The position numbers and the translations under genes were made by a program. The notes under the pieces were generated by a model, which was not told the DNA's origin, did not search any database, and saw only the letters and a list, made by a program, of their open reading frames with translations. This document shows, piece after piece, positions 9,166 through 26,502 of a stretch of DNA of 64,000 nt. This DNA comes from Phyllobacterium sp. YR531 (lineage in GTDB: Bacteria; Pseudomonadota; Alphaproteobacteria; Rhizobiales; Rhizobiaceae). Position 1 is the stretch's first letter; every line of letters begins with the position of its first letter. The DNA lies in contig NZ_AKIZ01000030.1 of the NCBI RefSeq assembly GCF_000282595.1, positions 1-64,000 of the forward strand, in the 5' to 3' direction.

Positions 9166-10745
9166 TGCCACAATTTGTCTGCGCTGTAGATGTTGGCACA
9201 GGAAGCGCCCGTGCGGGCATTCTGGATGCAAAGGGCAATCTTCTTGGCCGCGTTGAACACCCGATCCTGATGAATCGTCCGATGGGCGATCACGCAGAAC
9301 ATGATTCGGAAGATATCTGGAAATCCGTTTGCATAGCCGTTCAGGGTGCCGTTGCTGCGGCTAAAGTCAGCCCCGCTGATGTTGTTGGATTGAGCTTTGA
9401 TGCTACATGTTCATTGGTCGTGCGTGATAAGCAAACGGAACAGCTTACCGTATCAACCTCCGGCGAACGGCGCTGGGATACCATCGTGTGGCTGGATCAT
9501 CGCGCGCTTGATGAGGCTGATGAATGTACGGCAACCGGCCATAAAGTTCTCGATTTCCTGGGTGGCGTTATGTCTCCGGAAATGCAAACGCCAAAATTGA
9601 TGTGGCTGAAACGCCATCTACCTGCGACATGGGAAAAGGCAGGCTACTTCTTTGACCTTGCTGATTACCTCAGTTGGAAAGCGACGGGTTCATTGGCACG
9701 GTCGCAATGCACATTGACCTGCAAATGGACTTATCTTGCCCATGAGGAGCATGGATGGCAGGCGGATTACCTGAAAACGATTGGTCTGGAGGACTTACTT
9801 GAACGTGGTCACCTGCCGGAAGTTGCAAGCCCTGTAGCAACCGATCTTGGCGCGTTGACCAGTGAAGCAGCAAAGGCATTGGGCCTCACAACCAGTTGCC
9901 AGGTAGGTGCTGGTCTGATTGATGCTTTTGCTGGTTCGCTTGGAGTCCTTGGTGGCTTTGCTGGTGATCTTTCGCAAATTGACCGCCATCTTGCATTGAT
10001 AGCTGGAACATCAAGCTGCCTGATGGCGCTGTCACAGGAGCCAATTTCTTTCCGTGGCGGTTGGGGGCCATATCATGGTGTTGCGCTTCCGGATGTCTGG
10101 CTGAGTGAGGGAGGTCAATCCGTGACCGGTGCCCTACTCGACCATATCATCCGTTGGCATGGTGCTGGTGGTGAGCCCAATGGTGATCTGCATAGAAAAA
10201 TCACAGCACGAATCATGGAGCTTCGCGCTGCAGAACCCGATCTTGCAAATCGCCTGCACGTCTTGCCAGACTTTCACGGCAATCGGTCACCGCTCGCAGA
10301 TCCCCACGCGGTGGGCGTTATCAGCGGCCTGACGCTGGATTCATCATTCGACAGCCTCTGCCGTCTGTATTGGAGGACTGCCGTGGGCATATCACTTGGC
10401 GTGCGGCACATTCTTGATGCCTTTAATGACAAGGGTTACGCCATTGATACGATGCACGTTACCGGTGGGCACATCAAAAGCCCATTGCTGATGGAACTCT
10501 ATGCTGATGCAACCGGGTGCACGGTTATCACCTCTGCAGCGGAAGACGCAGTACTTCTCGGCACAGCAATGGTCGCGGCAACTGCTGCCGGTATGTATCC
10601 CGATCTACCCTCAGCCTGCACTGCGATGAAACAAGGCGGGCGAGCCTGTCAGCCTGACCCGGCAGCACGCCAGCGGCTTGATCGCGACTATCGCATTTTT
10701 GTTGAAATGCACGCCCAGCGCAAAGCACTGGACGCGATACAATAG
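9165..10745 (+). CDS. FGGY-family pentulose kinase (ribulokinase-like)
   Basis: ATP-dependent sugar kinase of 526 residues. The N-terminal phosphate loop is VDVGTGSARAGI, the ATP-side glycine patches AGTSSC and VTGGHIKSPLLMEL, and the pattern DATCSLV near residue 83 is typical of the ribulokinase-like FGGY subgroup rather than xylulokinase. It fits phosphorylation of D-ribulose or D-xylulose made from pentitols by the two dehydrogenases. The start at 9165 overlaps the HAD stop. The stop lies one base from the convergent polA stop, with no terminator between them. Confidence 0.82.
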   Translation: MPQFVCAVDVGTGSARAGILDAKGNLLGRVEHPILMNRPMGDHAEHDSEDIWKSVCIAVQGAVAAAKVSPADVVGLSFDATCSLVVRDKQTEQLTVSTSGERRWDTIVWLDHRALDEADECTATGHKVLDFLGGVMSPEMQTPKLMWLKRHLPATWEKAGYFFDLADYLSWKATGSLARSQCTLTCKWTYLAHEEHGWQADYLKTIGLEDLLERGHLPEVASPVATDLGALTSEAAKALGLTTSCQVGAGLIDAFAGSLGVLGGFAGDLSQIDRHLALIAGTSSCLMALSQEPISFRGGWGPYHGVALPDVWLSEGGQSVTGALLDHIIRWHGAGGEPNGDLHRKITARIMELRAAEPDLANRLHVLPDFHGNRSPLADPHAVGVISGLTLDSSFDSLCRLYWRTAVGISLGVRHILDAFNDKGYAIDTMHVTGGHIKSPLLMELYADATGCTVITSAAEDAVLLGTAMVAATAAGMYPDLPSACTAMKQGGRACQPDPAARQRLDRDYRIFVEMHAQRKALDAIQ

Positions 10746-10746
10746 A

Positions 10747-13698
10747 TTAGTGCGCAGCTTCCCAGTTTGAAGCTGCGCGTGCATCAACCTGTAGGGGAAC
10801 AGAGAGGGAAATTGCGGGCATAGCTGCATTTTCCATTACTTCACGGATGACTGGTAGCGTTGCATCTACCTCCTCGTCACTTGTTTCGAAAACGAGTTCG
10901 TCATGTACCTGAAGCAGCATACGTGCTGAGAGCTTGGCTTCAACAAGTGCAGCGTCCATGCGCACCATGGCACGACGGATAATGTCGGCAGCAGAGCCTT
11001 GGATAGGTGCATTGATTGCTGCACGCTCATTGAACGCCCGCAGTTGCGGATTGGATGAGCGAATTTCGGGATAGTGCGCACGGCGACCGAAAATGGTTTC
11101 GACATAGCCGTGCTGGCGGGCAAAGGCTTTGGTTGCTTCCATATAGTCCTTGATGCCGGGAAAACGATCAAAATAGGTACGGATATACTGGCTGGCCTCT
11201 TCGCGGGGGATTGATAACTGGTTCGCAAGACCAAAAGCGGAAATGCCGTAGATAATGCCGAAATTGATAGCCTTTGCACGGCGTCGCACCTCAGAAGGCA
11301 TGCCTTCGACGGGGACGCCAAACATCTCTGAGGCGGTCATGGCGTGAATGTCGATGCTGTCAGCAAAGGCTTGAGTGAGCTGCGGAATTTCAGCCACATG
11401 CGCCAGCACGCGCAGTTCGATCTGGCTATAGTCGGCAGATATCAGTTTGTTGCCCGGTGCTGCAATAAAGGCGGTACGAATCTTGCGGCCTTCGCTGGTA
11501 CGTACGGGAATGTTTTGGAGATTTGGTTCTGACGAAGACAGGCGCCCCGTCGATGTCGCAGCCATCGCATAAGAAGTATGCACGCGCTTTGTTTGCGGGT
11601 GAATATAGCCAGGCAAAGCATCGGTATATGTTGATTTCAGCTTGGTAAGTTGCCGCCAGTCTACAATCTTGCGCGGTAGTTCATGGCCCTCAGCTGCAAG
11701 ATCTTCAAGGAGTTGTGCCGATGTTGACCATTGTCCCGTCTTGGTCTTCGAACCACCGGGCAGGCCCATTTTCCCGAACAATATATCGCCCATCTGCTTG
11801 GGGGAACCAATGTTGATTTTCTCACCGGCAAGTTTGTAGATTTCTTCCTCGATCGCGGCCGCTGATTGTGCGAGGTCCCCTGATAGCCTCGACAATATCT
11901 GCCGATCAACACTTATGCCTCGTTCCTCCATCCGGGCAAGGACAGGAATAAGAGGGCGCTCCAGGCGCTCATAAACCGAAGCGAGACCATCGGCAACAAG
12001 GCGTGGCTTCAGCAATCGCCACAGACGCAAAGTGACGTCGGCGTCTTCGGCTGCATATTCAGTAGCACGTTCAATCTCAACCTTGTCAAATGTAAGCGAA
12101 GACTTACCAGATCCAATCAAATCCTTGTAGGCCAGCGGTTTATGGCCCAGCCAGCGGTCACAAAGACTATCCATGCTATGATGACCTTCACCAGCATCAA
12201 GCACATAAGAGATAAGCATGGTGTCATCGACGGGACGTAGATCGATGCCATGACGGTGCATCACCAGCCATTCATACTTCATGGAGTGAGCAATTTTCAG
12301 AACCGATGCATCTTCCAACATTGGTTTTAACAGGCGGAAAACTGCAGCTTCAGGGATCTGGTGCTCAAGAAGACCACCACCGAGCAAATCGCCATCACGT
12401 GACTTGTGGTTTATCGGGATATAGGCGGCACGCCCAGGCCGAGTGGCCAAAGACAAGCCAACGATTTCGGTCTGCATCGGGTCAGCAGATGTTGTTTCCG
12501 TATCGAAGGCCACAATACCTGACGCCATCGCCTCGTCGATCCAGATTTGCAGTGAAGCAGTATCGCGAATGGTTACATACGCGCTGCGATCAATCTTGCC
12601 CGAGAGTGCCTCGTCGGTGCGTGCTTTGACCAGATCAGCTGGAGTCGCGGCAATATTGGATGAACTGGGCTTGTTTGAAACGACTGTTTGGTCCGACGGT
12701 GTAGAAGCTGGACGGTTTGCGCTAGCTTCGCTTTTATCAAGATCGGGGCCATGTGCCTCTGCAACGGCTTCAATCTTCAGATTGGTTGCCTCAATCGCGC
12801 TGGCATCAACGCCAGTTGCTTCTGCGGCCCTGCGTGTCAGGGAGTTAAATTCCATGGATTTCAGGAAAGCCACAAGCTTGGGACCGTCCTGTGGTTCAAG
12901 TACGAAATCTTCCAGACCTATATCAATCGGGGTATCAGTTTTCAAAGTAACAAGCTGGCGTGAGATCAGCGCCTGCTCGGTATATTGAATGATGTTTTCG
13001 CGTCTTTTCTGCTGCTTGATCTCGCCGGCACGCGAAAGCAATGTATCCAGATCACCAAACTCCTCCAGCAACTGTGCTGCAGTTTTTGGTCCAATGCCGG
13101 GGATGCCAGGGACATTGTCGGTAGAATCGCCCGTCATTGCCTGCAGATCGATCATTTTTCCCGGCGGTACGCCCCATTTCTCGACCACCTCGGGGATACC
13201 GATCTGTTTATCCTTCATACTGTCGTACATGGAGACAAGTGGTGTCACCAATTGCATCAGATCCTTGTCGGAAGAGATGATTGTCACCTCTGCACCTGCA
13301 GCCTCCGCCATGCGGGCATAGGTGGCAATCAGGTCATCGGCCTCATATCCCTCTTTCTCGATACAAGGCAGGTTGAATGCTTTCGTCGCTTGCCGGATCA
13401 AGCCAAATTGCGGGATAAGGTCTTCCGGCGGAGCAGAACGGTTTGCTTTGTATTCCGGATAAATTTCCTTCCGGAAGGTTGTCGAAGAATAATCAAAAAT
13501 GACCGCAAAATGTGTTGGCGTATCGCGCACCGAGGTATCACGCGCCTCGCGCAAAAGCTTCCACAGCATGTTGCAAAAGCCTGAAACTGCACCGACGGGC
13601 AAGCCATCCGATTTCCGCGTCAGCGGAGGAAGGGCATGGTATGCACGGAAAATATAGCCGGAACCGTCGACGAGGAAGAGATGATCACCTTTTTTCAT
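10747..13698 (-). CDS. polA: DNA polymerase I
   Basis: A 983-residue three-domain polymerase for Okazaki fragment processing and excision repair. The N-terminal 5' nuclease domain spans about 1-300, with the helix-hairpin-helix DNVPGIPGIGPKTAAQLL. The 3'-5' exonuclease domain follows and keeps its catalytic pair (FDTETTSADP), so proofreading is probably active. The polymerase domain has motif A DYSQIELRVLAHVA, the O-helix RRRAKAINFGIIYG and motif C QVHDELVFE. The start is set at 13698 (MKKGDHLFLVDGSGYIFRAYHA). The open frame extends 47 codons upstream, but that part has no family similarity. Confidence 0.96.
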   Translation of the reverse strand: MKKGDHLFLVDGSGYIFRAYHALPPLTRKSDGLPVGAVSGFCNMLWKLLREARDTSVRDTPTHFAVIFDYSSTTFRKEIYPEYKANRSAPPEDLIPQFGLIRQATKAFNLPCIEKEGYEADDLIATYARMAEAAGAEVTIISSDKDLMQLVTPLVSMYDSMKDKQIGIPEVVEKWGVPPGKMIDLQAMTGDSTDNVPGIPGIGPKTAAQLLEEFGDLDTLLSRAGEIKQQKRRENIIQYTEQALISRQLVTLKTDTPIDIGLEDFVLEPQDGPKLVAFLKSMEFNSLTRRAAEATGVDASAIEATNLKIEAVAEAHGPDLDKSEASANRPASTPSDQTVVSNKPSSSNIAATPADLVKARTDEALSGKIDRSAYVTIRDTASLQIWIDEAMASGIVAFDTETTSADPMQTEIVGLSLATRPGRAAYIPINHKSRDGDLLGGGLLEHQIPEAAVFRLLKPMLEDASVLKIAHSMKYEWLVMHRHGIDLRPVDDTMLISYVLDAGEGHHSMDSLCDRWLGHKPLAYKDLIGSGKSSLTFDKVEIERATEYAAEDADVTLRLWRLLKPRLVADGLASVYERLERPLIPVLARMEERGISVDRQILSRLSGDLAQSAAAIEEEIYKLAGEKINIGSPKQMGDILFGKMGLPGGSKTKTGQWSTSAQLLEDLAAEGHELPRKIVDWRQLTKLKSTYTDALPGYIHPQTKRVHTSYAMAATSTGRLSSSEPNLQNIPVRTSEGRKIRTAFIAAPGNKLISADYSQIELRVLAHVAEIPQLTQAFADSIDIHAMTASEMFGVPVEGMPSEVRRRAKAINFGIIYGISAFGLANQLSIPREEASQYIRTYFDRFPGIKDYMEATKAFARQHGYVETIFGRRAHYPEIRSSNPQLRAFNERAAINAPIQGSAADIIRRAMVRMDAALVEAKLSARMLLQVHDELVFETSDEEVDATLPVIREVMENAAMPAISLSVPLQVDARAASNWEAAH

Positions 13699-19972: not shown

Positions 19973-20674
19973 TTATGCCAGTACGTAAAGACCATGCACA
20001 TAGGCGCCAGCAAACACCAAGACAAAAACGCTGATGATAAGGGCGTTGATGCCGTTTTTATGTTCGCTAGCGCGGGAGTACTGGTAGCACACACCAGCAG
20101 CCGTAACCATCAACGCCAGATAACTTGCGCTCTCGGCAATCTCTTCCTTGATCTGCATGGCTACTGTTCCGTGCTGTGAATCGCAGTAAGCTCCAATCAG
20201 CAGGAAGATCGCTGCAACGTAGAACGGCCACGCATTCGGGCTGAACACGAAACGTGCGATTTCACCGACCATACGCCAGCGAAAAGCCAGATAAGCACAT
20301 GCCACGCCGATAACGACGATTGCTTCGTGAATACGGAATACCTTGCTGTTCATATAGGTTGTGATCGGTCCCACACGGTCTACCTCAAGTTCGCGCAAGA
20401 AAAAGACAATGCAAAGCACGGCCATACCAATGCAGAACATTCTGCCAGCTTTATGCTGCAACAATCCGGCAATGAGGAACAGCGCAGTCGCCCCGGCGAT
20501 ATAGGCCAATTGAAAGGTTTCGATAGCGCCCGATTCATCCAGCGAAACGGACACGTCACGCGGGTCAATCGTAAAAGCAAAGTAACCGATGTTGAGGACG
20601 AGTGCAGCGAGCAAAAGCAGTGCGAAACCCGTTGTGAACTTTGCCTTTTCCATATCGCGGACCCTGTAAGACAA
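19973..20674 (-). CDS. Polytopic membrane protein of unknown function
   Basis: About 226-233 residues with roughly seven hydrophobic segments. The start could be 20674 or the second ATG at 20653 (MEKAKFTTGFALLLLAA). I do not recognise the family. Charged groups sit between or inside the membrane spans: FLRELEVDR, RIHEAIVV, CDSQHGT and KEEIAES. The spacing of Glu, Asp and His is suggestive of an intramembrane enzyme, but there is no motif I can name. It heads the minus-strand glycosyltransferase operon, so a role in lipid-linked or surface glycan metabolism is possible. Confidence 0.6.
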   Translation of the reverse strand: MSYRVRDMEKAKFTTGFALLLLAALVLNIGYFAFTIDPRDVSVSLDESGAIETFQLAYIAGATALFLIAGLLQHKAGRMFCIGMAVLCIVFFLRELEVDRVGPITTYMNSKVFRIHEAIVVIGVACAYLAFRWRMVGEIARFVFSPNAWPFYVAAIFLLIGAYCDSQHGTVAMQIKEEIAESASYLALMVTAAGVCYQYSRASEHKNGINALIISVFVLVFAGAYVHGLYVLA

Positions 20675-20756: not shown

Positions 20757-21605
20757 CTATGCAGATTGACGAATATTACGAGCAGGTACGTGCCGCAAAT
20801 CGGTCTCTGTTCCAGAGATCACCGATTTTGTTTGTCGGGGCGCGGTTGGACGAATGGTGAGTCGAACTCCTTTGATCCACAGTCGTAAAGCTTCCCAGTG
20901 AATGCCGAAAATTACCTTCAATGTCAAAAGCGGATAGGCAAAAATCAACCTCGATAAAGCTCGATCGCCGAATGCAAGACGCTTGCCGGTGAACGCTGTT
21001 GCGATGATCAAGCCTTCATCGTCACGGGCATTTATTACGATGGACGCATCACTACCCGGCTGGGTAATAGTGAAGTCATACCCAAGTTCCATTTCAAGAA
21101 ATGGCGAGACGTAAAACTCCTTATTACATTGCTGATGCAACGGACCAGCCACATCCACGCCATGCCCAAGAGGAAAAATATAGCTATGACGCTGCCCGAA
21201 AGTGTTGTTCACCTCGTAGATCAGCACTCGTAGCCTTTGGCTAAGGTCGTAGCAGTAATAGACGCTAAGAGGATTAAACACGTAACCAAGTATGCGAGGC
21301 ATTGTCATGAGCTGAATTTTGCCACCATCGGGCGTGATTCCCGCTTCACTCATGCGATTTTCAGCATAGATTCTCAAATGCTTATCCGCAGCATCAGTGC
21401 TCGATTTATAACCATGATCCTTGTTGAAAAAGCTGAAGAAATTGAAACGGTTATAAGAGAACAGCCGGCTTTTCTCCGACAATGCGCCAAGCTCATCAAT
21501 ATCGAAAAACATGTAAAACATACGATAGCGCAAGAAATGCGCCTTTGGTCTCAGCCGCTTATGGGTAACCTTTCCAGCGTAAATCGCTGAGTTCCATGAG
21601 TTCAT
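20757..21605 (-). CDS. DUF1365 family protein
   Basis: A 282-residue DUF1365 protein. SAIYAGKVTHKRLRPKAHFLRYRMFYMFFDIDEL near the N-terminus and YVFNPLSVYYCYD are the family hallmarks. The start at 21605 overlaps the stop of the FAD oxidoreductase (ATGA), so they are translationally coupled. In many proteobacteria this pair stands next to cyclopropane fatty-acid synthase-like genes and an ECF sigma/ChrR pair, implying a role in modifying membrane fatty acids under photo-oxidative or oxidative stress. The biochemical activity is not known to me. Confidence 0.88.
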   Translation of the reverse strand: MNSWNSAIYAGKVTHKRLRPKAHFLRYRMFYMFFDIDELGALSEKSRLFSYNRFNFFSFFNKDHGYKSSTDAADKHLRIYAENRMSEAGITPDGGKIQLMTMPRILGYVFNPLSVYYCYDLSQRLRVLIYEVNNTFGQRHSYIFPLGHGVDVAGPLHQQCNKEFYVSPFLEMELGYDFTITQPGSDASIVINARDDEGLIIATAFTGKRLAFGDRALSRLIFAYPLLTLKVIFGIHWEALRLWIKGVRLTIRPTAPRQTKSVISGTETDLRHVPARNIRQSA

Positions 21606-22930
21606 GCTGCGATCTCCAAACCATAGTTCCGTGGCACGCGGACAATACGGGATGATTCGTTCTCTACCATCCACGGTCGCCGCAATCCTCCAAGATCTTC
21701 AGCGACAGCAAGCCCAGCCTGCAAACCATCTTCATGAAAGCCGGATCCGAAATATGCACCACAATACCAGGTGTTGCGCTCACCCTGCATTTGCCAAAGC
21801 TGCTTCTGCGCCTGCATCGCCTGACTATCAAACACCGGATGCGTGTAGGTCTGTGTATGCAATACCTTTTGCGGGTCAGGTTGGTGACGTGGATTGAGCG
21901 TCACGAAGTACTGCCGATCCGTTTCCAAGGTTTGTAGCCGATTCATCCAATATGTCACACACAACTGGCTGCCAGCATTGGCCTCTTGCCGGTGACCAAG
22001 ATAATTCCAGCTTGACCATACAGAGCGCCGTGTGGGCATCAGGGACTCATCTTCGTGCAAGACGGCATGGTTTATCGAATAGCGAAATGCCGAAAGCAGG
22101 TGCTGTTCCATGGGTGAAGGATCAGTCAGCAAGCCAAGCGTCTCATCAGCATGGCTGGCCATGACAACATGATCAAAGATTTCAGTTTCGCCATTAACAT
22201 CCTTTATCTCGACATGATTGAAGCCCCGCTGCACAGACAGGGCAGCGCACCCGACCTTGACGCGATCCTTATAGCTGGCTGTCAGGCGCTCAACATAAGA
22301 ACGACTTCCGCCTTTAACCGTGCGCCACAACGGCCGGTTGGATAATTTCAGCAAACCGTGATTGTCGCAAAATCGGATGAATGCCTCGGCGGGATATTCA
22401 AGCAAGGTGGATGCAGGTGCGGACCATATGGCGGCAGCCATGGGAAGAAGATGGTCATCGCGGAACGCTGCACCATAACCCTCGCGTTCAAGAAACTCAC
22501 CAAGTCCAATCAGGCCGAGTTTACCCGCATGAGATGGCGTATCGCGGTAAAAGCGGAGCAGGTCCCGCAGCATCATCCAGAAACGCGGATTGAATAAATT
22601 ACGCTGCTGGGCAAATAGCCCACTGAAGCCTGTGCCGGAATATTCGAGCTTTCCGCTATCGAGCGAAACTGCGAATGACATTTCGGAGGCGGCGGTTTCG
22701 ACATCAAGATGGGCGAAAAGTGCTGTAAGGTTTGGGTATGTGTGCTCGTTGAAAACTATGAAGCCAGTATCAACTGGTAAAGGGCGTTCATTGTCTCTTT
22801 CGATCAGGAAAGTATTGCTGTGACCGCCAATACGGTGTTCCCGCTCATACACGGTGACATCATTATTCTGCGACAACAGCCACGCGGCTGACATTCCAGA
22901 AATACCGGTCCCTACAACAGCAATTTTCAA
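21602..22930 (-). CDS. FAD-dependent amine-oxidase-like oxidoreductase (COG2907 type)
   Basis: A 442-residue flavoprotein. The Rossmann motif VVGTGISGMSAAWLL is followed by the dinucleotide-fold acid (VYEREHRIGGHSN). The C-terminal FAD contact resembles NTWYCGAYFGSGFHEDGLQAGLAVAE. The start is a TTG at 22930: the ribosome site GGGAGAG lies seven bases upstream and the product begins at the canonical KIAVVGTG. The open frame continues to 23512, but that part crosses the promoter region. Transcription is likely from the ECF promoter at 23010-23036. Coupled to DUF1365; predicted to act on membrane lipid. Confidence 0.87.
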   Translation of the reverse strand: MKIAVVGTGISGMSAAWLLSQNNDVTVYEREHRIGGHSNTFLIERDNERPLPVDTGFIVFNEHTYPNLTALFAHLDVETAASEMSFAVSLDSGKLEYSGTGFSGLFAQQRNLFNPRFWMMLRDLLRFYRDTPSHAGKLGLIGLGEFLEREGYGAAFRDDHLLPMAAAIWSAPASTLLEYPAEAFIRFCDNHGLLKLSNRPLWRTVKGGSRSYVERLTASYKDRVKVGCAALSVQRGFNHVEIKDVNGETEIFDHVVMASHADETLGLLTDPSPMEQHLLSAFRYSINHAVLHEDESLMPTRRSVWSSWNYLGHRQEANAGSQLCVTYWMNRLQTLETDRQYFVTLNPRHQPDPQKVLHTQTYTHPVFDSQAMQAQKQLWQMQGERNTWYCGAYFGSGFHEDGLQAGLAVAEDLGGLRRPWMVENESSRIVRVPRNYGLEIAA

Positions 22931-23009: not shown

Positions 23010-23036
23010 ATACGTTGGAGATACGAAAATGGATCA
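23010..23036 (-). promoter_or_regulatory. ECF (RpoE/ChrR-type) promoter for the FAD-DUF1365 operon
   Basis: Read on the minus strand: -35 TGATCC (23031-23036), a 16-base spacer (23015-23030) and -10 CGTAT (23010-23014). TGATCC and CGTA-type elements are known for the RpoE/ChrR group of ECF sigma factors. Transcription would begin near 23003, about 73 bases before the TTG start. Confidence 0.75.
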
Positions 23037-23052
23037 GGATAAGTTTCGGCGC

Positions 23053-23079
23053 TGATCCATTTTCGTGATCTCCCCGTAT
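23053..23079 (+). promoter_or_regulatory. ECF (RpoE/ChrR-type) promoter for the sigma-factor operon
   Basis: -35 TGATCC (23053-23058), 16-base spacer (23059-23074) and -10 CGTAT (23075-23079), the same layout as the divergent promoter. It implies autoregulation of the sigma gene. Transcription would begin near 23086, leaving a leader of roughly 118 bases before the ATG at 23204. Confidence 0.75.
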
Positions 23080-23203
23080 GAGCGGTATGCATGACGTCAG
23101 CACATTTGGTTTTATCGACATACACAGCACAGAGCGCATCTTGCTTCGCAGCAAGTTCAATGGTTGCGAACAAAAGGCTGGTGCTGGGCGTTATGTACGC
23201 AGA

Positions 23204-23749
23204 ATGAAGAAGATCGACGAAAATTCGGCACGGATCGTACGCATTGCCCAGCATGCAGATAAGGCGGCATTTGCCGAACTGTTCAGTTTTTATGCTCCGC
23301 GTATAAAAGGTTTTTTCATGCGCGGGGGTATGGCGGCAGGGCAGGCAGAAGAGCTGGCGCAGGAGACGATGCTGACGGTCTGGCGAAAAGCGGCGCTGTT
23401 CGATCCCGCCAAAGCCGCCGCCTCCACATGGATATTTACCGTAGCCCGCAATCTGCGCATCGATCTTATTCGGCGGGAACGCTATCCCGCTCAACATTTG
23501 CTGGAAGAGCATGATCCGGAATATGAACCGACGCCTTCCGAAGGATTATTGAAAGCGGAAAGTGAAGAGCGCATTCGTACAGCAATAAAAGCGCTTTCGC
23601 CCGAGCAGATACGCGTAATCCATCTGCATTACTTTGACGATAAACCCCACAGTGAAATAGCCGAAACGCTGGATTTGCCGCTTGGAACGGTGAAATCCCG
23701 CCTGCGTCTGGCGGTGCAGCGTTTGCGCAGCTTGATCGGGGAGGATTAG
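23204..23749 (+). CDS. rpoE: ECF sigma factor, RpoE/ChrR (ECF11-like) group
   Basis: A 181-residue sigma factor. Region 2 contains AEELAQETMLTVWRKA and TWIFTVARNLRIDLIRR (core and -10 recognition). Region 4 contains LSPEQIRVIHLHYFDDKPHSEIAETLDLPLGTVKSRL, the -35-binding helix-turn-helix. The ATG at 23204 gives the usual family start, although no strong ribosome site precedes it. The anti-sigma gene follows after four bases. In Rhodobacter the homologous pair answers singlet oxygen. The three promoters found here fit its known recognition pattern. Confidence 0.92.
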   Translation: MKKIDENSARIVRIAQHADKAAFAELFSFYAPRIKGFFMRGGMAAGQAEELAQETMLTVWRKAALFDPAKAAASTWIFTVARNLRIDLIRRERYPAQHLLEEHDPEYEPTPSEGLLKAESEERIRTAIKALSPEQIRVIHLHYFDDKPHSEIAETLDLPLGTVKSRLRLAVQRLRSLIGED

Positions 23750-23753
23750 AATA

Positions 23754-24401
23754 ATGAATAATCGTCCATCTGATGAAATTTTGATGGCCTTCGCATCGGG
23801 TACTTTATCGCAAGGCCCGGCGGTTGTTGTAGCTGCTCATTTAGCTCTCTGTTCCGAGAGCCGCGCGCGAGTTCGCCAGTACGAGGCTGTTGGTGGCTTT
23901 ATGCTTGATGATTCTCCGACCGTAACCATGTCAGCAGATTCTCTGGAAAAAGTGCTGGGTCGGTTGGATATTTCATCCGCTGCACCAGTGCGCGACAAGG
24001 GAAAATGGCTTGCTGAAATGCCGGACGGTCTGACGTTACCCGATCCGCTTCAGCATTATGATATCGGCAAGTGGAAGTTTCTTGCTCCAGGTGTTCAGTG
24101 GAGTTCCGTTGGCAAGGGAGGACCGTCCCGGTCCCGTCCCATGCTGCTGCGCTCCAAGCCGGGAATGGTTCTCCCCGAGCATACGCATGCCGGGACAGAG
24201 TATACACTGGTGCTGAAAGGTTCGCTGCACGATGAACTGGGCGACTATGGGGTTGGAGACCTTATTATTGCCGACGCCAGTCTCGAACATGAGCCACGGG
24301 CAGGGCCCGACGAAGAATGTATATGTCTGGCCGTGGTTGACGGGCGATTGCGCATGAAAAGCCTCATCGGCCGCATTGTCCAACCACTGATGGGATTTTG
24401 A
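23754..24401 (+). CDS. chrR: ChrR-like anti-sigma factor with incomplete zinc site
   Basis: 215 residues in two domains: an N-terminal anti-sigma (ZAS) domain and a C-terminal cupin domain. In the family the ZAS zinc is held by an N-terminal His plus HxxxCxxC. Here the motif reads HLALCSES, so His29 and Cys33 remain but the last Cys is Ser36, and the N-terminal His position is Arg4. The cupin ligands appear intact (His143, His145, Glu149, His179). It should hold the sigma factor inactive in the cytoplasm; how well it does so without full zinc ligation is an open question. It starts four bases after rpoE. Confidence 0.85.
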   Translation: MNNRPSDEILMAFASGTLSQGPAVVVAAHLALCSESRARVRQYEAVGGFMLDDSPTVTMSADSLEKVLGRLDISSAAPVRDKGKWLAEMPDGLTLPDPLQHYDIGKWKFLAPGVQWSSVGKGGPSRSRPMLLRSKPGMVLPEHTHAGTEYTLVLKGSLHDELGDYGVGDLIIADASLEHEPRAGPDEECICLAVVDGRLRMKSLIGRIVQPLMGF

Positions 24402-24403
24402 CA

Positions 24404-25264
24404 GTGCGCAGCATCGTGACGGTTTCGGTTGTTATTGCGGCGGCGCTGGCATTTGCGGCCTGTTCTCCGGCGCGTATCCTCAACATGGCAACATCGGCCA
24501 ATGGTGCGGATGTTCAGAAGAACATTGCTTATGGAGAAGGTCCACGCCGTACGCTCGATGTGTATGCGCCCAGCGGTGCCAGAAATGCACCGGTCGCTGT
24601 GTTCTTCTATGGCGGTAGCTGGCAAAGCGGGGAAAAGCAGACTTACCAGTTTGTTGCATCTGCATTTGCCGCGAAAGGTATTGTCACGATCGTTCCTGAC
24701 TACAGGCTTTCTCCGGAAGTACACTATCAGGGCTTCCTGCGCGATGGCGCGATGGCGGTCAAATGGGCCAGAAACCATGCGAAACAATATGGTGGTGACC
24801 CTTCCAAGCTCTTTCTCGTCGGGCACTCTGCAGGCGCTTACATCGCTGCGATGTTGGCACTTGATGACGAGTGGTTAGATAGAGAGGGACTAAGTCCTGC
24901 TCGCGACCTCAAAGGTTTCGTGGGTATCTCGGGACCTTACAATTTTCTGCCATCGGATGACAAAAAGATTGCAGATATCTTCGCTACCGAGAAGTCGTCC
25001 GGTGCATCGCAACCCATCAATTATGCAGGCGGCAGAAACCCTCCTGTTTTGCTTCTGCACGGTACGGGCGATAATACAGTCTATCCGCGCAATAGCACTG
25101 GTCTTGGGGATGAGTTGCGCGCAGCAGGCAGTTCTGTTGAAGTGAAATTATATCCCGGTGTAGGCCATCTCGGAATAATTGGTGCCATGGGCTCACCCGC
25201 GAGATTCATTGCACCGACATTGAAGGACACCACGGATTTCATATTGGGCCAACCCAATGGGTGA
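24404..25264 (+). CDS. Lipoprotein-like alpha/beta-hydrolase (esterase)
   Basis: About 286 residues. A hydrophobic signal ends in FAAC, a weak lipobox, so the protein is probably exported and possibly membrane-anchored. The esterase/lipase fold shows FFYGGSW (oxyanion region, Tyr instead of the usual His), the nucleophile elbow GHSAGAY, and the distal Asp and His in GTGDNTVYP and GVGHLG. GTG 24404 is preferred because GGGA lies about nine bases upstream; TTG 24398 overlapping the chrR stop is the alternative. It sits inside the sigma operon, so it is likely stress-induced and acts on lipid or an envelope ester. Confidence 0.78.
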   Translation: MRSIVTVSVVIAAALAFAACSPARILNMATSANGADVQKNIAYGEGPRRTLDVYAPSGARNAPVAVFFYGGSWQSGEKQTYQFVASAFAAKGIVTIVPDYRLSPEVHYQGFLRDGAMAVKWARNHAKQYGGDPSKLFLVGHSAGAYIAAMLALDDEWLDREGLSPARDLKGFVGISGPYNFLPSDDKKIADIFATEKSSGASQPINYAGGRNPPVLLLHGTGDNTVYPRNSTGLGDELRAAGSSVEVKLYPGVGHLGIIGAMGSPARFIAPTLKDTTDFILGQPNG

Positions 25265-26048
25265 GGCAGGGCTTCTGCTATTTTCTGCAGTAGCTTTCTG
25301 TCTGATCATGGCGGTTGCCTGGCAAATGCAACGAATAACCGGGAATGATGGTTGGGCGGACGTATTCTGGTCTTATGGCGTCGGGGTGACAGGGATCGGC
25401 GTTGTATTGATGTCGCCTGGCGCATCGCCTAGTCGTCGCTGGTTGATTGCCACTATGTTGGCTGCTTGGTCCCTACGCCTTGGTACCCACATTTTGCTGA
25501 GAACCTTGAAGAGCCATGATGATCCCCGCTATGCGGACTTACGCAAGGAGTGGGGAGATCATGCACCATGGCGCATGTTCCTGTTTTTGCAAAGTCAAGC
25601 GGTTGCCGGATGGGTACTTGTCTCTTGCATCTACATTGCCGTGAGCAGGCAGGGTGAAGAACTCGACATTTTCGACCATGCGGGTGCGTTTATCATGGTT
25701 ATCGCAATTGCGGGTGAAGCCATTGCAGACCGGCAATTGAGAGATTTTGCGCGTAACAATGCGAATCGAGGCAAAGTTTGTGATGTCGGCCTATGGCGAT
25801 GGTCTCGCCATCCGAATTACTTCTTCGAATGGCTGGGCTGGGTATCATATGCCGTCGTCGCAGTCGGAAGCTTGCTGCCATATGGCTGGCTTGCGCTTGC
25901 TGCACCCACCATCATGTATATTTTATTGCGGCACGTGTCGGGCGTGCCACCTTTGGAAAAGCATATGCTGCGATCGCGCGGTGAGGCTTTCCGTGAATAT
26001 CAACGGCGCACCAGTATTTTCTTCCCTGTTCCGCCATCCGCTTATTGA
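25257..26048 (+). CDS. DUF1295 membrane protein (steroid 5-alpha-reductase-like)
   Basis: A 263-residue multi-span protein. DVFWSYGVGVTG near the N-terminus and the C-terminal CDVGLWRWSRHPNYFFEWLGW, then EKHMLRSRGEAFREYQRRTSIFFP, match the DUF1295/3-oxo-5-alpha-steroid 4-dehydrogenase family, whose C-terminal motif binds NADPH. It is likely a lipid-modifying reductase or methyltransferase-like enzyme of the stress regulon. The start overlaps the esterase stop by eight bases. The 3' end overlaps the convergent DUF2177 gene by seven bases. Confidence 0.87.
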   Translation: MGEAGLLLFSAVAFCLIMAVAWQMQRITGNDGWADVFWSYGVGVTGIGVVLMSPGASPSRRWLIATMLAAWSLRLGTHILLRTLKSHDDPRYADLRKEWGDHAPWRMFLFLQSQAVAGWVLVSCIYIAVSRQGEELDIFDHAGAFIMVIAIAGEAIADRQLRDFARNNANRGKVCDVGLWRWSRHPNYFFEWLGWVSYAVVAVGSLLPYGWLALAAPTIMYILLRHVSGVPPLEKHMLRSRGEAFREYQRRTSIFFPVPPSAY

Positions 26049-26455
26049 AGCTTTGCCAGTATCCATCCTGTCAGGACAAAGCTGAGACTAGCCGATACAG
26101 CGGAAGCAAGAGTCCCCCAAGCCATATCAACAACCGTAACAGCCGTTGACCACTGTTTTAATGTTGCCTGATTTGTAAGATCGTAGGTCGCATAGGCCAT
26201 GAAACCGAATAAAGCGCCATAAACGAGTGCAGTCGTCCAACGGCCAGTTTGCAGTGCAGGACTGACGGCGAAGATGACAATACCTGCCACAAAGATCAGG
26301 TAAAACAGAACCGCCGCCGTATAATTTACGTCTGTACTTATAACGTCCGGGAGACGGTTGCGATAAAAACTTGTCGCAACGGTGCTTAGCCAGGCAAAGT
26401 CCAGAATGAAGAAGACAACCGCAGTAGAGAGATAGGCAACCGCATATTTGAGCAT
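26042..26455 (-). CDS. DUF2177 family membrane protein
   Basis: A 137-residue protein with four hydrophobic segments. YLSTAVVFFILDFAWLSTVATSFYR at the N-terminus and GALFGFMAYATYDLTNQATLKQW in the middle are the DUF2177 signature. The family is commonly found near ECF sigma/ChrR, COG2907, DUF1365 and DUF1295 genes. The function is unknown. It has its own ECF promoter just upstream, leaving a leader of about 14 bases that includes GGAA before the ATG. Confidence 0.88.
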   Translation of the reverse strand: MLKYAVAYLSTAVVFFILDFAWLSTVATSFYRNRLPDVISTDVNYTAAVLFYLIFVAGIVIFAVSPALQTGRWTTALVYGALFGFMAYATYDLTNQATLKQWSTAVTVVDMAWGTLASAVSASLSFVLTGWILAKLQ

Positions 26456-26475
26456 TGGCGTTCCTTTTCCTGTCT

Positions 26476-26502
26476 ATACGCAAAGAGACGTTGCCCGGAT
26501 CA
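26476..26502 (-). promoter_or_regulatory. Third ECF (RpoE/ChrR-type) promoter, for DUF2177
   Basis: Read on the minus strand: -35 TGATCC (26497-26502), 16-base spacer (26481-26496), -10 CGTAT (26476-26480). The elements and spacing equal those at the other two sites, while the spacer sequence is unrelated, which argues for function rather than copying. Confidence 0.75.

Follow-up and report, generated by a model that had tools for sequence, protein, structure and literature searches.

The closest described relatives of the system considered here pair an extracytoplasmic function (ECF) sigma factor with a ChrR-type anti-sigma factor. In Rhodobacter sphaeroides, where RpoE-ChrR belongs to group ECF11, the core regulon has been reported to include furan fatty acid genes (PMC6852236), and UfaM, UfaD (RSP1091) and UfaO (RSP1090) have been reported to suffice for making methylated furan fatty acid (PMC7380195); by locus tag, RSP1091 and RSP1090 lie beside rpoE (RSP1092). 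A TGATCC-N16-CGTA consensus was obtained by chromatin immunoprecipitation sequencing in Pseudomonas syringae (PMC5507510), and start sites have been mapped for the RpoE2-ChrR system of Shewanella oneidensis (PMC4336711). Here we compare with these systems a seven-gene cluster of Phyllobacterium sp. YR531, which lies within positions 1 to 64,000 of contig NZ_AKIZ01000030.1 (64 kb, hereafter the window, to which all coordinates refer). Three copies of TGATCC-N16-CGTAT in this cluster are very probably promoters used by the RpoE-type ECF sigma factor whose gene they flank, controlled by the adjacent ChrR-type protein and with the genes behind the three sites as its targets.

The cluster shares with R. 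sphaeroides the adjacent sigma and chrR genes, the cupin ligands of ChrR, the TGATCC/CGTA promoters, and ufaD and ufaO as predicted targets. It differs in that its ChrR lacks equivalents of H6 and C38, in that no photolyase gene was found in the window, the only part of the genome searched for one, and in that the local set adds a DUF2177 gene, a DUF1295 gene and an esterase gene. The N16 consensus and autoregulation are also common to PSPTO_1043/1042 of P. syringae and to Shewanella RpoE2-ChrR, both from gammaproteobacterial hosts, for which the target lists seen are largely of other genes. The initial annotation of this DNA had assigned the sites to the RpoE/ChrR group, which agrees with the published consensus and with the adjacent sigma and anti-sigma genes; it was made unaware that the system and its FAD-DUF1365 targets had already been described in other bacteria (PMC6852236, PMC5507510, PMC4336711, PMC7380195). 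As judged by homology, the FAD-DUF1365 pair corresponds to UfaD-UfaO, known RpoE-ChrR targets, and the core of the predicted regulon is known biology. What appears to be new is DUF2177 as a recurrent candidate target in Alphaproteobacteria, together with a ChrR that has lost two ligands of its first zinc site and a putative leaderless, extended sigma factor.

Three sites of one spacing and their conservation

The initial annotation had placed one copy of TGATCC-N16-CGTAT before each of three transcription units and had thereby joined seven genes (sigma, chrR, alpha/beta hydrolase, DUF1295, DUF2177, FAD protein and DUF1365) into one predicted stress regulon. A string search found exactly three copies in the window, at the predicted coordinates and strands: the putative ECF promoter of the sigma-chrR-hydrolase-DUF1295 operon at 23,053–23,079 on the plus strand, that of ufaD-ufaO at 23,010–23,036 on the minus strand, and that of the DUF2177 gene at 26,476–26,502 on the minus strand. 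Dinucleotide shuffles of the window (n = 100) contained the string 0.03 times on average, and no shuffle contained three copies. When a purine was required after TGATCC, perfect elements occurred three times at N16 and not once at 18 other spacings within the window; with one mismatch allowed, the counts were five sites at N16 against 24 over the 18 other spacings.

Genome-wide (4,997,302 bases in 41 contigs), the string occurs seven times. As control we used other spacings of the same string; a reversed-string control was set aside because it contains CTAG, a tetranucleotide that is rare in bacteria. Spacings of 6 to 26 together gave 88 genome sites, which leaves 81 over the 20 spacings other than N16, or 4.05 each, and the N16 total of seven is near this background (P = 0.12 against the other spacings). 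The local density is not: three N16 sites lie in 64 kb where 0.052 are expected (P = 2.2e-5). Read by eye, two of the four outside matches (L001 and L002) lie in or over coding DNA away from any promoter position, one (L003) lies in DNA without a convincing gene, and one (L004) lies at the 3′ end of a lysR gene, with a MAPEG gene starting 22 bp further on. The genome scan that the initial annotation had proposed as a check thus bears out the three local sites, which exceed chance, and not the other four, which occur at the background rate, and for this reason a genome-wide scan on the string alone would mislead.

Conservation supports the reading of the sites as promoters. From 161 sigma relatives we kept 79 loci, 72 of them also with chrR; five further ChrR genomes of the same genus have promoters identical to those of five named Phyllobacterium loci and were counted once. 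Of the 72 chrR loci, 59 have a perfect sigma promoter with the N16 spacer, compared with three over 18 other spacings together. A ufaD relative is present in 63 of the 72 loci, directly divergent from the sigma gene in 59 of the 72. Of the 63, 28 carry a perfect N16 site before ufaD, and none carries one at the 18 other spacings; with one mismatch allowed the figures become 42 of 63 at N16 against 11 over the other 18 spacings. Before DUF2177, 10 of the 18 related loci have a perfect N16 site, again with none at other spacings. These spacing-controlled counts back the prediction that all three sites precede transcription units as promoters. Across the promoter sites of related loci, the base following TGATCC is G in 74 of 119 cases and A in 45, never C or T, and because it is always a purine the consensus can be sharpened to TGATCCR-N15-CGTA.

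Within the source genome, the two divergent sites are not fully independent, since they share their first 14 bases, TGATCCATTTTCGT, in inverted orientation (23,010–23,079). The initial annotation had held that the matches are not mere duplication, which stands for the third site, unrelated to the others outside both elements, and does not fully stand for the divergent pair. The shared bases would fit a string repeated by chance, or one to which a repressor binds as an inverted repeat, and yet the third site has nothing else in common with the pair, N16 stands out against other spacings, and five other Phyllobacterium loci keep both divergent sites with the elements and N16 intact, their spacers differing and no inverted repeat being shared; we consider such an origin highly improbable. 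The sharing of TGATCCATTTTCGT by the divergent promoters, seen in the source genome and in none of the five other Phyllobacterium loci, is perhaps the result of recent copying.

ChrR with an altered zinc site and the case for its control of the sigma factor

The sigma gene (23,087–23,749, plus strand) encodes 220 amino acids from an ATG at the predicted +1, or 181 from an inner ATG at 23,204. A domain scan found sigma-70 regions 2 and 4 only, and the nearest solved structure is R. sphaeroides RpoE (2q1z_A, E = 1.3e-43). The gene that follows (23,754–24,401, plus strand) encodes a ChrR-type anti-sigma factor, with a PF12973 match and 192.2 bits against TIGR02451 (cut-off 124.5). For comparison we used R. 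sphaeroides ChrR (2z2s_B), whose ligands we take to include H6, H31, C35, C38, H141 and H143; E147 and H177 are reported as further ligands of its cupin domain (PMC6852236). In the alignment, R4 and S36 of the window ChrR replace the anti-sigma-domain ligands H6 and C38, and the four positions read R4, H29, C33 and S36 instead of H, H, C and C. The cupin ligands H143, H145, E149 and H179 are all kept. The altered zinc site had escaped the initial annotation, as had the start codon at the predicted +1.

This loss is not confined to one protein. Of 73 ChrRs (those of the 72 loci and of the window), 17 lack at least one anti-sigma-domain ligand and the other 56 retain the full set of four. The cupin H, H and E are found in every row that has letters at these positions (72 of 72), and the last H in 70 of 71. 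In a quick tree with long branches, the six Phyllobacterium rows make up a single starred group, and parsimony counts six changes, at least three of them forced by starred branches. Different ligand losses were seen in other ChrRs (L026, L027, L037, L064, L069, L070, L072, L073, L075, L076 and L078). The zinc motif given for ZAS proteins, H/C-X24/25-H-X3-C-X2-C (PMC6432622), is absent from the aligned anti-sigma domain of the window ChrR, which is why we do not file the protein as a ZAS. A review describes zinc in the ChrR anti-sigma domain as required for inhibition; the part of this site in singlet-oxygen sensing is described as under debate, a model peptide of it reacting fast with singlet oxygen (PMC6432622), and the cupin domain has been reported to be necessary for the response (PMC6852236). 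ChrRs without these zinc ligands would then need some other means to inhibit and, presumably, to sense, the simplest being the cupin domain.

Targets and regulator also travel together. In the genus, ChrR occurs in six of 20 genomes, and DUF2177 and UfaD occur in the same six (one very weak UfaD match, in genome G006, was set aside). In two named Phyllobacterium strains (L297 and L300) the cluster lies on a large plasmid, a location that fits its presence in only six of the 20. Among 59 relatives, DUF2177 is found in 21, all of which have UfaD (28 of 59 overall), and 18 of these 21 also have a ChrR above cut-off. Class-wide, DUF2177 occurs in 47 of 385 genomes, and DUF1365 in 44 of those 47 as against 185 of all 385. 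The P values for co-occurrence (2e-10 and 2e-12) overstate independence, the genomes being related. In nine of the best 30 class-wide DUF2177 loci, the window's included, a site at N16 with no more than one mismatch lies within 400 bp, compared with two over 18 other spacings.

Genomes of this kind usually carry several ECF sigma factors, and the sites might be recognised by a different one, or by several; the relatives that keep UfaD and DUF2177 without ChrR would fit such an arrangement. Set against it are the identity of the motif with the published RpoE-ChrR consensus, its perfect form before the sigma gene itself in 59 of 72 relatives and the co-occurrence of targets and ChrR in the genus, so that we regard recognition by another sigma factor as unlikely.

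Several observations nonetheless count against control by the local sigma-ChrR pair. The string alone is unspecific, four of its seven genome matches being at the level of background. The window ChrR scores 189.4 bits against NF051881, a stricter equivalog model with a cut-off of 300, and with two of its zinc ligands missing its mode of inhibition may differ. A perfect site is missing before eight of the 18 DUF2177 genes near chrR, several of these eight lying directly behind chrR, and three genomes (G021, G026 and G029) have DUF2177 and UfaD without ChrR. Finally, there is the lack in the window of a gene for photolyase, a published member of the core regulon: such a gene stands directly behind ufaO in four of the five related Phyllobacterium loci (L008, L010, L011 and L057; none was found in L009) and on plasmid pPT1018 (L300). 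Taking both sides together, we still infer sigma-ChrR control, and with it a role in furan fatty acid formation, by analogy with the described systems.

A start codon at the predicted +1 of the sigma gene

Promoter geometry was used to place +1, at 12 nt beyond the C of CGTA. Read in this way, the sigma promoter leads directly into an open frame: the start predicted in the initial annotation, 23,086, is the base immediately 5′ of an ATG at 23,087–23,089 that lies in the sigma frame, 39 codons before the inner ATG at 23,204. These 39 codons (23,087–23,203, plus strand) would form an N-terminal extension that begins at the predicted +1, with MHDVST as its first residues. The message would then be leaderless, the ATG at +1 serving as its first codon and giving the stress-induced sigma factor some 40 additional residues, and we see the chances of this as evenly balanced. 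It would add to the explanation given above and not replace it.

Of 67 related loci, 58 keep the sigma frame open all the way from +1 to the conserved core, and the corresponding numbers for the two alternative frames are 0 and 12. Part of this stretch belongs to the short protein, and the 25 codons nearest the core were therefore omitted in a second count, in which the sigma frame is open in 59 of 67 loci against 13 and 22 of 67. Both counts favour a translated extension. In 46 of the 60 loci with a perfect promoter, an in-frame ATG or GTG lies 12 nt (20 loci) or 13 nt (26 loci) beyond the C of CGTA, the other two frames together having one such codon at these positions, and no comparable peak was seen for ufaD (1 of 29) or DUF2177 (0 of 11). 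All six Phyllobacterium loci are in frame even as their extensions differ in length by one codon. Plasmid records agree, with an in-frame ATG in all four annotated ones examined (of 54 found); the RefSeq start is placed at the +1 ATG in two of the four and downstream in the other two.

Other observations count against this reading, in which the +1 position itself comes from promoter geometry. In 11 of the 60 loci there is no in-frame ATG, GTG or TTG 10–15 nt from the C of CGTA. In the Phyllobacterium loci, substitutions at the three codon positions of the extension, counted on a DNA alignment, are near even (236, 195 and 228), and those of the core are 329, 251 and 1004; core counts for Shinella, Salibaculum and the Boseongicola group come from an unaligned comparison, look misaligned and were left out. 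The GC content by codon position over 53 loci is likewise less coding-like in the extension (0.617, 0.547 and 0.617) than in the core (0.671, 0.443 and 0.716). Because of the even substitutions and this GC pattern, the protein sequence of the extension appears weakly constrained. The combined pattern fits a stretch that needs to be translated and whose residues carry little weight, such as a destabilising tail.

A precedent exists in Streptomyces, where the SigR′ form is reported to carry 55 extra residues, to have a half-life of about 10 min and to be made from an autoregulated promoter (PMC4921905). SigR/SigR′-RsrA and the window system have in common an autoregulated ECF promoter, an in-frame extension of about 40–55 residues and a soluble anti-sigma factor; the start codon at the predicted +1, and hence the leaderless form, sets the window sigma apart. 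By analogy, the long form could be short-lived and give a burst of feedback, with a shorter form made from an inner ATG or GTG. Among the literature matches listed, none describes a leaderless or extended RpoE of the ChrR type. The wider proposition, that alphaproteobacterial RpoE-ChrR systems have a leaderless, extended sigma factor and that in Phyllobacterium and several other lineages ChrR senses through its cupin alone, we put forward tentatively, as somewhat less probable than its converse.

Predicted targets and a membrane-lipid defence

The four plus-strand genes overlap or leave a gap of only 4 bp, and for this reason they are predicted to form one transcript. Behind chrR, and overlapping it, comes a gene for an alpha/beta hydrolase of the BD-FAE esterase/lipase type (24,398–25,264, plus strand; PF20434, E = 2.9e-29), with an N terminus that by eye is lipoprotein-like. 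It overlaps in turn the gene for a DUF1295 membrane protein with a steroid 5-alpha-reductase-like fold (25,257–26,048, plus strand; PF06966, E = 2.7e-67). The structure model of this protein has a mean predicted local distance difference test (pLDDT) score of 90.6, and its fold matches are weak, none having E ≤ 0.001: those at ranks 1, 2 and 4 (7bw1, 4quv_B and 7c83; E = 0.0075 to 0.03) are a steroid 5-alpha-reductase, a sterol reductase and another steroid reductase, rank 3 belongs to a chloroplast motor complex (chain 8xku_G), and the matches at ranks 5 and 6 also fall among steroid or sterol reductases and ICMT. Beyond the operon end and facing it lies the gene for the four-helix DUF2177 membrane protein (26,042–26,455, minus strand; PF09945, E = 6.8e-46), with its own predicted promoter and a predicted leader of about 15 nt that contains GGAAAAGGA. 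Its fold search gave no confident match despite a model pLDDT of 92.8.

Divergent from the sigma gene, and adjacent to each other, are the genes for a FAD-dependent oxidoreductase homologous to UfaD (21,602–22,930, minus strand, TTG start; PF01593, E = 2.2e-18) and for a DUF1365 protein homologous to UfaO (20,757–21,605, minus strand; PF07103, E = 2.6e-76). From gene order, we take DUF1365 to be the family of UfaO. The start of the latter gene was chosen by eye; its ATG at 21,605 would overlap the ufaD stop, and the listed open reading frame starts at 21,674. A gene on the same strand behind ufaO (19,973–20,674) may be co-transcribed with it; it encodes a 233-residue membrane protein with no match in Pfam or NCBIfam and no relative in the 79 related loci. 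In seven Shinella loci (L020, L024, L028, L030, L032, L039 and L041), a DUF1365-like gene lies beyond DUF2177, at about 9,580–11,300 in most, with a divergent TGAACC-N16-CGTA between the two, which looks as if ufaO had moved and retained its ECF promoter.

The published UfaM-UfaD-UfaO pathway and this locus have in common that UfaD and UfaO homologues stand side by side under a predicted promoter of the sigma factor, and they differ in that the UfaM-type gene of the source genome is unlinked (G000:C23:51309-52568). A CFA-type methylase counts among the core genes of RpoE-ChrR regulons, and the UfaM-type methylase gene (L090 and L237) is present in all 20 genus genomes. Its promoter has one mismatch in the source genome, and a site with at most one mismatch in the −35 element and CGTA intact occurs in three of the six ChrR genomes and in none of the 14 others (P = 0.018, by a criterion set after the data had been seen). 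If the site in G008, which has a mismatch in CGTA, is counted, the figures are three of six against one of 14 (P = 0.061). These counts are suggestive of the methylase as a target. The MAPEG gene with a site 22 bp upstream (G000:C19:84877-84903) was considered as a fourth target and rejected: across the genus it has a perfect site in two of the six genomes with ChrR and in one of the 14 without (Fisher P = 0.20), the site recurs with one mismatch in four more of those 14, and it overlaps the lysR coding sequence.

The cluster of this plant-associated bacterium probably serves to switch on membrane-lipid defences against singlet oxygen made by light. At rest, the ChrR-type protein would hold the sigma factor, to be released by singlet oxygen or an organic hydroperoxide; since the anti-sigma domain cannot form a four-ligand zinc site, the cupin domain would have to carry most of the release. 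The freed sigma factor would activate its own operon (sigma, chrR, esterase and DUF1295), ufaD-ufaO and the DUF2177 gene. UfaD and UfaO would convert the methylated acyl chain supplied by the UfaM-type methylase, encoded elsewhere, into furan fatty acids, which would scavenge singlet oxygen in the membrane. For the remaining genes we propose that the steroid-reductase-like DUF1295 protein may reduce oxidised, conjugated acyl products, that the esterase may clip oxidised acyl products and that DUF2177 may act as a membrane partner.

Families of this cluster also appear in other published gene sets. The singlet-oxygen genes that depend on SAK1 in Chlamydomonas include, in Table 5 of that study, CFA1, CFA2, DUF1365, DUF2177 and DUF1295 (PMC4067076); each DUF name appears there once, the regulator is eukaryotic, and only the family names connect these genes with the bacterial ones. 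DUF2177 has also been grouped with an alpha/beta hydrolase in heliorhodopsin operons (PMC11109279).

ChrRs in which the first zinc site is lost, with cupin ligands and promoter network retained, offer a direct test of the debate on sensing. The start codon at the predicted +1 suggests a second form of the sigma factor; if this is true, the singlet-oxygen response would have a built-in, SigR′-like feedback form that work on the short protein would have missed. DUF2177 and DUF1295, for their part, gain a testable role in lipid defence against singlet oxygen, possibly one shared with a green alga.

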